From the NCBI GenBank assembly GCA_903842235.1, contig CAIMLG010000238.1:1-52796 (forward strand): a stretch of 52,796 nucleotides of DNA, written 5' to 3'. Source of the stretch: an uncultured Verrucomicrobia subdivision 3 bacterium. GTDB taxonomy: Bacteria; Verrucomicrobiota; Verrucomicrobiia; Limisphaerales; UBA11358. The notes under the pieces are model-generated. The model was not told the origin of the DNA. It made no database searches and saw nothing but the letters and a program-made list of their open reading frames with translations. Shown one piece after another: positions 32,613-49,988 of this stretch. Every line of letters begins with the position of its first letter. Within the stretch, counting starts at the first letter, position 1. The position numbers and the translations under genes were made by a program.

Positions 32613-33125
32613 TCAGCGCTCCATGCCCAGTTTAATCTCCTGATTCCCCGGCCCCCTGAGCGTCACCCCGGTTTGACTGATGGCTTTCACCTTGAACTGG
32701 CCCACCGCCTCGCCGGGGCGGACGGTCTTGCCGCCCACGATGGCGATCGGCTTGGTTGGGGAATAGAAAATTGCCTGCAAAACCGGCCGGTCAGCCGGGC
32801 TCGCTGGCGGAGGATCTGCTGGCGTCGGCAGCGGCGGGGCGGGGGCCTTCGGCCTTTCCACGGTTCGCGCGACGACCGGCGGTGTGACCGGCACCACCGG
32901 CTGGGTCGTCACGATGGGGTGGACCATTGTGCCCAAGCTGGGGCGGGGCCACCAAAACCAGGCTCCGAAGCCGATCACCGCCGTTAGGGTCAGAAGGATG
33001 ATACCGGGGAAGCGCCACGCGGCGGCGGGTTCGTCCGCGACCGGCTGGAGCGGCGCCAGCGGCGGGGACGAGTGGGGCGGCGGGTTTTGCCGGGCCTGTT
33101 TCAAGGCGTCGTTGATGAGGCTCAT
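32613..33125 (-). CDS. GspB-like general secretion protein
   Basis: MSLINDALKQARQ N-terminus, one TM, Pro-rich linker, C-terminal LQAIFYSPTKPIAIVGGKTVRPGEAVGQFKVKAISQTGVTLRGPGNQEIKL. Confidence 0.75.
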   Translation of the reverse strand: MSLINDALKQARQNPPPHSSPPLAPLQPVADEPAAAWRFPGIILLTLTAVIGFGAWFWWPRPSLGTMVHPIVTTQPVVPVTPPVVARTVERPKAPAPPLPTPADPPPASPADRPVLQAIFYSPTKPIAIVGGKTVRPGEAVGQFKVKAISQTGVTLRGPGNQEIKLGMER

Positions 33126-33937
33126 GCGTGGATGTCTCCTTCCAGTTCGCGGATGGCGCGGCCCACCATCCGGTAATTGATGCGGTCGCTGCGCTCGACA
33201 AACCCCGCCAGCAGCGCCTTGTCGCACACGGCGTTGACCAGCCGCGGAATGCCCTTGCTATAGCCAAACACCCGCCAGAGGGCTGGCGCGGTGAAGGTCG
33301 GAAAGCCGCGCGCGCCGGCCAGCGCCAGGCGGTGGTGGATATACTGGCCGACTTCCGTCCGCGTCAGTGGATTCAAATGATACCGCACGGTGATGCGCTG
33401 GCGCAGTTGCCGGAGCTGATGGCTGTTCAGGCGGTCGCGCAATTCCGGCTGGCCCATCAGGACAATCTGCAACAGCTTCCGGTCATCCGTCTCGATATTG
33501 GAAATTAGCCGCACCTGTTCGAGCAATTCCACGGTCAGGTTCTGCGCCTCGTCCACAATGAGCACCGTCTCCCGGCCCGCCAGTGTTTGTTTCAACAAAA
33601 AATCGCTGATGCTGGCCAGCGTCTCCAGCCGGTCCCGGCCTTTCACCTCCAGGCCGTATTCCGTGGCGATGGCCTTCATCAGCTCATCCGCATTCAGGAC
33701 GGGATTCAATATCAAAGCCGTGGAGAAATTGCCGTCCAGGTGTTCCAGCAGCGCGCGGCAGAGCGTCGTTTTACCCGCGCCGACCTCGCCGGTCAGTTGG
33801 ACAAAGCCTTTGCGCTCGCGAATGCCGTAAAGAAGATGGTTGAACGCCTCGCGATGCTTCCGGCTGTGAAAAAGAAAGCGCGGATTCGGCGTGATGTCGA
33901 ACGGCGACTGCTTCAATCCGTAATATTCCAGATACAC
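33122..33937 (-). CDS. ExeA/GspA-like AAA secretion ATPase (TIGR03015-like)
   Basis: MYLEYYGLKQSPFDITPNPRFLFHSRKHREAFNHLLYGIRERKGFVQLTGEVGAGKTTLCRALL; VLIVDEAQNL. Confidence 0.9.
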   Translation of the reverse strand: MYLEYYGLKQSPFDITPNPRFLFHSRKHREAFNHLLYGIRERKGFVQLTGEVGAGKTTLCRALLEHLDGNFSTALILNPVLNADELMKAIATEYGLEVKGRDRLETLASISDFLLKQTLAGRETVLIVDEAQNLTVELLEQVRLISNIETDDRKLLQIVLMGQPELRDRLNSHQLRQLRQRITVRYHLNPLTRTEVGQYIHHRLALAGARGFPTFTAPALWRVFGYSKGIPRLVNAVCDKALLAGFVERSDRINYRMVGRAIRELEGDIHA

Positions 33938-34134
33938 AGGTGGTTTCTTTCGCGCTAAACCGGGGTGGCCCCGAGTTCATCACCATGAAAGCACAAGATC
34001 CCAATTAGAAGCAATTGGCAATTGCGGGCGCAGGGCGGTTCGCCACCCGAAGCCGGGTGAACTTTAAAACCTCAATGATTTCCTCCGCCGTCGACCGCTT
34101 GACATCCCACGCCACCGCGGCAAACACTAGCCGC

Positions 34135-36030
34135 ATGACGTCTGAGACGAAGAACTTTTTTGCCTTCACCGGCACCGTATTATTGCCCCGGGCCGGCCGG
34201 ATGTCCCCAACCGGATCCAAATCCCACTCGTTGGCTCGCTGGCTGGTGGTTGCTTGTGCGGCGCTGGCCATGCTTGGTGCAGCCAGCCCCGTCGCCGCGG
34301 CCGAGGGGCCGATCAAGACGGAAATCAAGCCGACGGCCGGGGGCTGGCAGCTGCTGCGCGCTGGCCAGCCCTATTTCATCAAGGGCGGCGGCGGGGGTGG
34401 TTCCAAGAGCGTGCTGGTCGAGTGCGGCGGCAATTCGTTTCGGACGTGGGGCGTCGGCAGCGACACGTTGGCCCAGTTGGACGAAGCGCAGAAACTCGGC
34501 CTCACGGTCACCTTGGGCGTCTGGCTGGGCCACCAAGGCAACGGCTTCAGCTACGAAAATCCCGAAACCTTGAACCGACAGTTCGACGCCGTCAAGCAGG
34601 CGGTCGAACGCTACAAAAATCATCCCGCCGTGCTGATGTGGGCTTTGGGCAACGAAATGGAAAACGGCAACGATACGCCGGTTCTGTGGCACCACATTGA
34701 AGCGCTGGCCAAGCTGGTGCACACATTGGATCCGAACCATCCAACCATGACCGTCGTGGCCGAACTGGGCGGCAATAAAGTCCAGAACCTCCACCAATCC
34801 TGCCCGTCGCTGGATGTGATCGGCATCAATTCTTATGGCGGCGGGCCGTCCGTGGCCAAGCGCTACCGGGCGGCGGGCGGCACCAAGCCCATCGTCATCA
34901 CTGAATTCGGCCCGGCCGGCACTTGGGAGACGCCCCTGAATTCCTTTGGGGCCGCCCAAGAATTAACCAGCACCGCCAAGGCCAAGGCTTACCATGACAC
35001 TTACGTCCAAGCCGTCACCGGCGCGCCGGGCCTGTGCCTCGGTTCGTATGCGTTTACCTGGGGCTCCAAGATCGAGGCCACGGCCACTTGGTTTGGCATG
35101 TTTCTGGCGGATGGCCGCCGCTTGGCCGCCGTGGACACCATGCAGGAACTCTGGAGCGGCAAGGCCCCGGCGAAACCGTGCCCGGCCATGACCAAGCTGG
35201 CTTTAACCTCCCCGGATCAAGTGCAGGCCGGCGATATTGTCAAAGCGGTGGTGGAAATCACTGACGCCAAGGATTGCCAGATCGATTGGGAACTTTACCG
35301 CGAGCAAAGCAATTATGATGTGCCGGGCGCTGGCGCGGCCGCCACGGCCGCTTATCCTGATGCGATTGCTCAGAATGGTGAGCGCGCGGTTTCCCTCAAG
35401 CTTCCTTCCGCCGGCGGCATTTACCGGCTTTACTGCACCATCCGCAATGCCACCGGCGGCGCGGCCGTGGGGAGTTTGCCCGTGAAAGTAACCGGCTCGA
35501 AAGTCGCCTTCCGGGCGCCGGTGGTGAACGTTCCGTTCGTCGTTTATGCCGACGAATTGAAAGACGCGCCCTATGTGGCATCCGGCTGGATGGGGGATGC
35601 CTCCGCCGTCGCCATGGACGCCGCGTGCGCGGACAATCCACACAGCGGCAAAACGTGTCTGAAAGTTGCCTACAACCAGCCCGGCGGCTGGGCGGGCGTG
35701 GTCTGGCAAAGTCCGGCCAACGACTGGGGCCAGTTGCCCGGTGGCTATGATCTTAGCGCGGCCAGCAAACTAACTTTCTGGGCGCGCGGCGCCAAGGGCG
35801 GGGAAAAGGTCAAGTTTGGCGTCGGCCTTATCGGCATCGAGAAGCGTTACCACGATTCCGGAAAAACGGATACCGGCGACCTCGTCCTGACTTCCGACTG
35901 GAAACAATATTCGATTGATCTGAGCGAGCTGGACCTGCAATGCATCAAATCGGGTTTCTATTGGACGCTGGTCGGCCAAGGCCGCCCGCTGGCGTTCTAT
36001 TTGGACGACCTCCAGTATGTGGCGGAGTGA
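34135..36030 (+). CDS. Secreted glycoside hydrolase (GH2/GH5-like TIM barrel) with C-terminal CBM-like domain
   Basis: AVERYKNHPAVLMWALGNEMENGND; IVITEFGPAGTWETP; C-terminal KLTFWARGAKGGEKVKFGVG...FYLDDLQYV. Confidence 0.75.
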   Translation: MTSETKNFFAFTGTVLLPRAGRMSPTGSKSHSLARWLVVACAALAMLGAASPVAAAEGPIKTEIKPTAGGWQLLRAGQPYFIKGGGGGGSKSVLVECGGNSFRTWGVGSDTLAQLDEAQKLGLTVTLGVWLGHQGNGFSYENPETLNRQFDAVKQAVERYKNHPAVLMWALGNEMENGNDTPVLWHHIEALAKLVHTLDPNHPTMTVVAELGGNKVQNLHQSCPSLDVIGINSYGGGPSVAKRYRAAGGTKPIVITEFGPAGTWETPLNSFGAAQELTSTAKAKAYHDTYVQAVTGAPGLCLGSYAFTWGSKIEATATWFGMFLADGRRLAAVDTMQELWSGKAPAKPCPAMTKLALTSPDQVQAGDIVKAVVEITDAKDCQIDWELYREQSNYDVPGAGAAATAAYPDAIAQNGERAVSLKLPSAGGIYRLYCTIRNATGGAAVGSLPVKVTGSKVAFRAPVVNVPFVVYADELKDAPYVASGWMGDASAVAMDAACADNPHSGKTCLKVAYNQPGGWAGVVWQSPANDWGQLPGGYDLSAASKLTFWARGAKGGEKVKFGVGLIGIEKRYHDSGKTDTGDLVLTSDWKQYSIDLSELDLQCIKSGFYWTLVGQGRPLAFYLDDLQYVAE

Positions 36031-36061
36031 ACGGGCTTAAGCCGGATCCCTGCCGTTGGAT

Positions 36062-36160
36062 TGGGTGGAACGGCCAACTTGGCCGTGCGCGGCGGCAACT
36101 TGCCGCCGCGCCGGGCGGGCGGGTCACCCGCCCGAACGGGCTGGTGGCCCGTTCCACCCA
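36062..36160. repeat. Compound palindromic element: outer 11 bp inverted repeat enclosing consecutive hairpins
   Basis: TGGGTGGAACG (36062-36072)/CGTTCCACCCA (36150-36160); internal CGGCC-AACTT-GGCCG, GCGCGGCGGC-AACTT-GCCGCCGCGC, CGGGCGGG-TCA-CCCGCCCG, ACGGGC-TGGTG-GCCCGT. Confidence 0.92.
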
Positions 36161-36182
36161 GACTTTGACGGCATGCTTACGG

Positions 36183-37292
36183 TTAAGATGACCGAGCGAT
36201 CACCCGCACCGCCTTAATCAGCGCCGCCGCCTCGGCGGGCGTGCCAATGGTGATGCGCAGATAATCACTCACTTCCGAGGCGCTGAACCAGCGGACCAGA
36301 ATTTTTTTGGCCCGCAACTTCGCCAGCCATTCCGCCGCCGGCAAGCGCGGCGGCCGGACCAGGATGAAATTCGCCTGGCTCGGCAGCACGCGGAAGCCCA
36401 GCTGGGTCAATTCCCGATCCAGCCATTCCCGCGTGGCGATGATTTTCTTGAAGTTGGCCTGATAATATTTCAAGTCTCCCAGCGTCGCCTCGGCGGCGAT
36501 TTGGCCGAGCCCGTTCACATTGTAGCTGTCGCGGATTTTATCCAGGGCGGCGATGAGTCCGGCTGCGCCGACGCAATAGCCGACGCGCTGGAAACAGAGC
36601 GAATAGGCTTTGGAGAAAGTTCGGGCCACCAGCACATTGGGATGCGTCAGCGCCAGCTTCAGCGCGTTTTCTTTGGCAAAATCCACATATGCCTCATCCA
36701 GCACCACCACGCCTTTTTGCGCGCGGCAGATTTTTTCCAGTTCCGCCGTGGGATAGCCGCGGCCACCCGGGGCGTTGGGTGTGGTGATGAATGTCAGCGC
36801 CGCTTGGAAATTCCACTCTTTGTCCCGCTTGAGTTCGGCCACCGAAGGCAGGGAAAAATCCGGGTTGAGCAACACCGCGTTTTTCGCGGCGCCATGAATC
36901 TCCGCCAGCACGGGATAAAGGGAATAGCTGGGCGTAAAATACTGCATCACCGCCCGGGGGCTGTCGTGTTTGGCCTTGGGCATGGGCTCCACAAACGCCC
37001 GCCCCGCCAGCGCCAGCACCTCGTCCGAGCCGTTGCCGACGAGGATGTTTTCCGGCCGACAGCCATGTAATTTAGCCAGTTGGGCGCGCAGGTTTGCCGC
37101 CGTGGGATTCGGATACCGCCGCAATCGGCTGTCCACCGCCGCCCGGACCGCCGCCAGCACCTTGGGCGAGGGCGGATACGGATTCTCGTTGGTGTTCAGC
37201 TTGATCAACCCCTTAATTTTGGGTTGCTCTCCCGGCACATAAGCGTGCAAGCCCTGCACCAGCGGACGAATGAGCGTGAGCGGTTTTGACAT
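36183..37292 (-). CDS. hisC: Histidinol-phosphate aminotransferase
   Basis: LIKLNTNENPYPPSPKV; ENILVGNGSDEVL; VVLDEAYVDFA; ARTFSKAYSLCFQRVGY. Confidence 0.93.
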   Translation of the reverse strand: MSKPLTLIRPLVQGLHAYVPGEQPKIKGLIKLNTNENPYPPSPKVLAAVRAAVDSRLRRYPNPTAANLRAQLAKLHGCRPENILVGNGSDEVLALAGRAFVEPMPKAKHDSPRAVMQYFTPSYSLYPVLAEIHGAAKNAVLLNPDFSLPSVAELKRDKEWNFQAALTFITTPNAPGGRGYPTAELEKICRAQKGVVVLDEAYVDFAKENALKLALTHPNVLVARTFSKAYSLCFQRVGYCVGAAGLIAALDKIRDSYNVNGLGQIAAEATLGDLKYYQANFKKIIATREWLDRELTQLGFRVLPSQANFILVRPPRLPAAEWLAKLRAKKILVRWFSASEVSDYLRITIGTPAEAAALIKAVRVIARSS

Positions 37293-49445: not shown

Positions 49446-49827
49446 CGCCCCAGTTTGAAGTCCGGCGGCTTGCGAATCTGCCGGAATATCGTAACCTGCC
49501 ACAGTGCGTGAAGCTGGTGCAAGAAGTTGCCGATAAACTCAACCTCAAAAGTCCCCTGCATCCCGATTGAAGGCTCGATCAGTTGGGCCGACTGGCTCAA
49601 AGGCCGCCGCGCCCGCCGCGAGAGCAGCCAGCTTGTCGCGCCCGGCGTCATCCGGCGCAAGAGCAGTTCCAGCGACCGGCGGCTGAAAAAACTCTTCAAC
49701 GGCGAACGCGGTCTGCCCTTCACGCCCACCGAGAAGCTCTAGGAATTTAAGGGTCCACTCCGGCGCGCGTCCCGGCTCGTGCCGAAGGGACGCCGCCCCC
49801 CCCCAGCGCCGCCGGCGCGGCTGACAA

Positions 49828-49988
49828 TAGCCCGCAGTTTTAACTGCGGGTTTCGCCCGCCAAATCAAACCCAGTCCCGGAGGGACGATCGAGGCCTTCG
49901 CCGCCTGTTTGCCTGCCACCCCATCCGGGGCTTGAACGATTAACCTACGGTTTTATCGTGGGCTGCTTTCGTCCGCCACTCCGTGGCT
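49828..49988. repeat. Cluster of short intergenic palindromes
   Basis: CCCGCAGTT-TT-AACTGCGGG, GTCCCGGAGGGAC, CCCCATCCGGGG, ACGAT..AACC-TAC-GGTT..ATCGT, GCCACTCCGTGGC. Confidence 0.75.

Follow-up and report, generated by a model that had tools for sequence, protein, structure and literature searches.

The window, meaning the whole 52,796-nucleotide stretch analysed here, comes from an uncultured Verrucomicrobia subdivision 3 genome (G000; 88.65% complete) and carries a four-hairpin palindrome at 36062–36160, in which an outer stem of 11 bp surrounds hairpins arranged in tandem. The palindrome lies between a glycosidase gene and hisC, and the features of the locus are as follows.

34015–36030, plus strand: glycosidase gene (Glyco_hydro_2_C), a neighbour outside the element
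36036–36187, no strand: whole palindromic element with imperfect outer arms, ~152 bp; the arms pair in the DNA fold
36036–36062, plus strand: left outer arm CTTAAGCCGGATCCCTGCCGTTGGATT, pairing in the DNA fold with the right arm
36063–36073, plus strand: 5' side of the outer stem, GGGTGGAACGG; GTGG adjoins H1; 97% of cells paired in 18 copies (helix 1)
36071–36085, plus strand: hairpin H1, loop AACTT; helix 2, 100% paired, compensatory changes at 2 pairs
36087–36111, plus strand: hairpin H2, loop AACTT; helix 3, compensatory changes at 4 pairs; in complete units a gene for a RAYT (REP-associated tyrosine transposase) follows H2
36116–36134, plus strand: hairpin H3, loop TCA; helix 4, compensatory changes at 5 pairs; located after the RAYT gene in complete units
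36136–36152, plus strand: hairpin H4, loop TGGTG; helix 5, competing with the outer stem
36149–36159, plus strand: 3' side of the outer stem, CCGTTCCACCC, found in the fold and in the alignment of 18 copies
36160–36187, minus strand: right outer arm AGACTTTGACGGCATGCTTACGGTTAAG, containing the hisC stop codon (36183–36185)
36183–37292, minus strand: hisC, with its stop codon inside the right outer arm

A previous sequence-only reading had described the outer stem and four hairpins, and all parts were present where it had placed them, including H4, which competes with the outer stem. Its limits of 36062–36160 hold for the core and fall short of the full length, as the imperfect arms extend to ~36036–36187. 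The extended palindrome thereby fills the gap between the two genes, running from just past the glycosidase stop codon into the end of hisC. Outer arms were also found in other copies (CTTAGCCGGAAC..GCAGTTGGAT); intergenic copies in relatives are flanked by arms similar to those of the window copy, whose left arm resembles that of a half copy (C60) in the same genome.

Folding of both strands, which that reading had proposed, gave a stable structure on each, with RNA minimum free energies of -82.7 (plus) and -82.3 kcal/mol (minus), z-scores of -7.8 and -8.5, and none of 200 dinucleotide-preserving shuffles as stable; a fold of 36033–36190 with DNA parameters gave a z-score of -8.1. Its suggestion of transcription insulation found no support: no promoter-like site was detected at the element and no T-run terminator-like site in 35900–36350, leaving the palindrome outside the definition of an intrinsic terminator. 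Rfam returned no match at the element at the gathering threshold. Elsewhere in the window, 49805–49850 on the minus strand matched the Rfam family Acido-Lenti-1 (37.5 bits, gathering score 37).

An AAA ATPase gene occupies 33122–33937 of the window. Among 28 other same-genus hisC loci with a parsable downstream flank, read by eye, ~20 have hisC followed directly by this ATPase gene; in the window's genome the glycosidase gene and the element are placed between the two (33122–37292). No other parsed locus has a glycosidase gene at this position, and the element was absent after hisC in all other parsed same-genus loci (read by eye), so the window copy is particular to its lineage.

The palindrome is not a single-copy sequence. 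Related elements are present in G000 and in its relatives, which bears out its earlier description as a dispersed compound REP-like element. G000 holds the window copy, the half copy (C60), a copy in metH and a two-hairpin copy in alaS. A strict hairpin pattern matched 32 of 245 genomes of the order, and a reversed control pattern matched none; matches per genome reached dozens to ~100 in some (89 in G099, where copies at many places are nearly identical). Distribution across the order is patchy, and the named relatives carrying the family are Verrucomicrobiota MAGs, including Limisphaerales and Pedosphaera. Spread by phages was considered and rejected, as nothing supported it and the strict two-ended pattern had no match in IMG/VR.

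Structural conservation was assessed in 18 distinct four-hairpin copies, a set that includes copies related by descent (metH orthologs and G099 copies). Standard pairs filled 96.8% of pair cells and compensatory changes affected 13 of 31 pairs, consistent with the covariation that the sequence-only reading had proposed to look for. The covariation score was 0.325, against 0.103 for shuffles (0/500 as high) and at most 0.073 for slid partners, and RNAalifold recovered the same four hairpins unaided. GTGG directly precedes H1 in 17 of the 18 copies, mirrored in most by CCAC after H4. Whole stems are swapped between copies while the loops stay. The covariation may stem either from selection on recognition or from correction of quasi-palindromes, two causes that these data do not separate. 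Two G099 loci (L339, L342) show a duplicated hairpin tip, e.g. GGCTGGTAGCCTGGCTGGTAGCC, a pattern that template switching within a palindrome would produce.

What the earlier interpretation missed is that the core is readable as protein and that many copies lie in frame in housekeeping genes. Copies occur within the long open frames of metH, alaS, lysS, valS and leuS, as well as in those of a DUF2126 protein, a sodium/solute symporter, a DNA methylase and a PKS-like protein, which corresponds to the in-frame palindromic repeats that characterize the Rickettsia palindromic elements (RPEs). The in-frame copies examined all use the phase GGT-GGA-ACR, whose translation yields, for example, GGTGYQPVAVGNLPT...GQVGRSTQT; this phase is partly forced, because stops close the other phases in some copies. 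Five genomes carry metH copies, all in one linker. In ~20 species this linker is short, and in others it is occupied by unrelated in-frame inserts, which marks it as a tolerant site used by several repeat families. Such unrelated inserts (L275–L286; G004, G009, G015–G017, G040, G042, G044, G046, G049, G050, G055) include peptides of the SPLTPTLSPKGERE- and ALAPALSPGERENRR- types. Another apparent in-frame insert was seen in leuS of G038 (L296:389-3022), where residues 450–510, downstream of the element, match TIGR00168 (the N-terminal part of IF-3).

The link to a transposase emerged only through spacing, as in three genomes the inverted ends lie 620 bp apart. A strict motif scan found none of 37 other Y1_Tnp loci (ten genomes) flanked by the element. 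Complete units read GTGG, H1, H2, a RAYT reading frame, H3, H4 and CCAC. This is exemplified by G029, in which H1-H2, the RAYT and H3-H4 form one stop-free frame within alaS, the only alaS found; further genomes also have palindrome ends on both sides of a RAYT. The encoded protein matched NF047646 REP_Tyr_transpos (E 2.5e-20; 72.8 bits, below the curated cut-off of 80) and Pfam Y1_Tnp (24.6 bits, above the cut-off of 23), and the HUH and Tyr-x-x-x-Asn-Pro motifs are retained in the RAYT alignment, which places it, on predicted features, among the Y1/HUH transposases of REP_Tyr_transpos type. No relative of the RAYT turned up among solved structures searched by sequence.

Searching 240 genomes of the order with the G029 RAYT gave matches in 36, and the best ~33 all lay in stop-free frames of 555–1540 aa. 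Host genes for this clade in the order were alaS (at two sites), thrS and priA; outside it, in further orders and one further class, they were alaS and recG; more distant Y1 transposases lie within clpB and dnaE frames. Short versions of alaS sites A and B without a RAYT were found in relatives. Apparently single in the 14 genomes checked, alaS is on two contigs in G034, broken near the insert. An assembly artefact is made less likely by G144, a one-contig assembly whose sole alaS contains a RAYT. In alaS of G099, G195 and G109 (L392, L386, L402) two RAYTs were observed, one per site. The RAYT association raised by the sequence-only reading is thus borne out in relatives, where the gene sits between the hairpin pairs, and not in the window's genome: G000 (88.65% complete) yielded no RAYT of this clade, and its alaS retains a short left-end remnant without one. 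No close RAYT was found in the element-rich genomes G092 and G217.

RAYT and palindrome are also matched by type. Five palindrome families flank RAYTs, and one family can occupy different host sites; mapping the flanking family onto the RAYT tree required 5 changes, with a minimum of 4 and a mean of 17.2 in shuffles (0/200 as low). Such pairing is not what chance insertion into repeats would give. The palindrome was present in 10 of 11 genomes with a RAYT of at least 60% identity versus 22 of 229 without (p 4.5e-9), a comparison that pools two draws (245 and 240 genomes) as one set and involves some circularity, the ends of the RAYT being themselves matches to the pattern. Other RAYT clades (L389–L421; alaS, thrS, priA and recG) are bordered by at least four more families of palindromic coding repeats, with the peptides ATVPVAS../DAQQSDRDGRAPQ, ARVPRAVSG../RRDAEESTRDARAPQ, APASGAADRALAV../SREGAGNGARGGRAPQ and HTRPRVSQSAPS../PTAAREGACAPP.

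Collectively, these comparisons make it very probable that the window feature is a non-autonomous, REPIN- or MITE-like copy of a presumably mobile RAYT element. The short copies, including the one in the window, would consist of the two ends without the transposase and represent non-autonomous RAYT products. The RAYT would recognize the hairpins as single-stranded DNA and copy or move them, as known RAYTs do. With a core free of stops in the phase that genes use, inserts into flexible loops of housekeeping proteins may be tolerated and persist, and many intergenic copies carry outer arms too. The window copy would then be an intergenic relict in a genome that keeps relicts only. Neither a clean empty site with codon-exact junctions nor a target duplication has been established for the element.

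Domestication of the embedded RAYT would offer a different account, in which the transposase domain and its ends became fixed in AlaRS and other proteins and were inherited vertically, leaving the scattered hairpins as old, immobile debris. Use of the same two alaS sites across the phylum agrees with it, as do a RAYT dN/dS of ~0.05 (28 computable pairs, with synonymous sites near or beyond saturation) and correlated RAYT and AlaRS distances (Mantel r 0.51, p 0.0015). As the domain is in frame, this constraint might be to the benefit of the transposase, of the host protein or of both. However, the RAYTs differ in clade between two AlaRS genes that are 93% identical (G081, G141), indicating exchange of RAYTs at one site, and RAYTs that are 88% identical (G050, G081) include one whose host AlaRS shares at most 63% identity with any other of the set. 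Judged from such comparisons, the histories of RAYT and AlaRS differ in part. RAYTs of the same clade also reside in thrS, priA and recG, the RAYT is missing from most genomes of the order, and the many near-identical copies within G099 sit poorly with old debris, so that domestication appears unlikely.

Replication slippage with quasi-palindrome correction might alone have spread the repeats and kept them palindromic, the RAYT having inserted into repeats already in place. The exchange of whole stems around constant loops, the duplicated tips in L339 and L342 and the several unrelated repeat families of the metH linker are all in keeping with this; the match of each of five separate RAYT clades with a palindrome family of its own, over a range of host sites, is not, and we consider such an origin very unlikely. 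A regulatory role as a structured RNA or as a bidirectional terminator or insulator is extremely improbable, since the great stability on both strands, the position between convergent genes and the compensatory changes that keep the helices are set against the lack of a T-run site and of an Rfam match, the many copies within coding sequence, the absence after hisC in parsed relatives and the patchy distribution.

Taken beyond the window copy, the reading as a RAYT element can be extended to a class of transposon adapted to a translated life. The RAYT and its ends, stop-free in one phase, would occupy preferred loops of essential genes present in single copy, with alaS as the main host, and be expressed within the host protein while scattering short in-frame and intergenic copies; we regard this extension as evenly balanced between right and wrong. 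Under it, the element could not be lost by deletion of its host gene, because that gene is essential. With the complete form of relatives lying in frame in essential genes such as alaS, a selfish element seems to persist as a translated portion of a presumably vital protein.

Among known systems, the closest are the RAYT/REP systems described as REPtrons, REPINs and BIMEs (PMC3733652, PMC2817692, PMC3116915), in which intragenic REPs, including some in tRNA synthetase genes, are on record (PMC3733652). Shared features are a REP-type Y1/HUH transposase bordered by inverted palindromic repeats, short end copies that are dispersed, a transposase clade matched with a repeat family, a patchy distribution and intragenic copies. 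As in REPINs, the same repeats flank a transposase gene in relatives, though not in the window's own genome, and many dispersed copies carry two inverted REPs, of which G000 has only a few. In contrast to those systems, the transposase here lies in frame and stop-free in essential genes, mostly alaS, the hairpin ends are translated, and each end has two hairpins. At the hairpin foot, where REPs have GTAG or a degenerate form of it, the element has GTGG, which has been reported for most GTAG-20 repeats of Opitutus terrae (PMC3733652).

RPEs likewise lie in frame in genes for functional proteins and between genes, with a CGTC end tag (PMC3733652). They share with the present element palindromic repeats in frame in protein genes as well as intergenic ones, and differ in phylum, apparently in sequence, and in that a matching transposase lies here between the ends; the CGTC tag by which RPEs are described was not seen, the conserved ends being GTGG/CCAC. 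Bacterial MITEs are similarly short, palindromic and dispersed, with terminal inverted repeats and an apparent origin in a larger transposase-bearing unit; the enzyme here is of the HUH/Y1 rather than the DDE type, and there are several hairpins. Inteins and homing elements place a selfish enzyme frame in frame in essential proteins at few preferred sites, as is the case here. Unlike them, the element has a Y1 transposase instead of a homing nuclease, and, no splicing domain having been seen, the protein is expected to retain the insert.

RAYT/REPIN systems and RPE-type repeats are already known, and what appears to be new is the transposase itself in frame in essential genes. The literature searched, which covered few subscription papers, contained no report of RAYTs embedded in alaS or in frame in essential genes, and an earlier description may exist. 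One survey put unusually long TnpA proteins aside as fusions or annotation errors (PMC6006769). An entire additional enzyme domain of selfish origin can be present in genes for AlaRS, ThrRS, PriA and RecG. This bears on annotation, where the resulting proteins resemble fusions or errors, and on the way proteins evolve by insertion. The element joins two puzzles, namely in-frame palindromic repeats such as RPEs and the persistence of RAYT transposases, in one testable system, with a transposase of the right kind between repeat ends and within essential genes of the same phylum.

Single hairpins of the form GGTGGAACRGGC-loop-GCCYGTT were also observed in cyanobacteria (L074, L077, L100, L112, L127; loop region ATCTT), and single hairpins of the same form in planctomycetes (L068, L070, L080).
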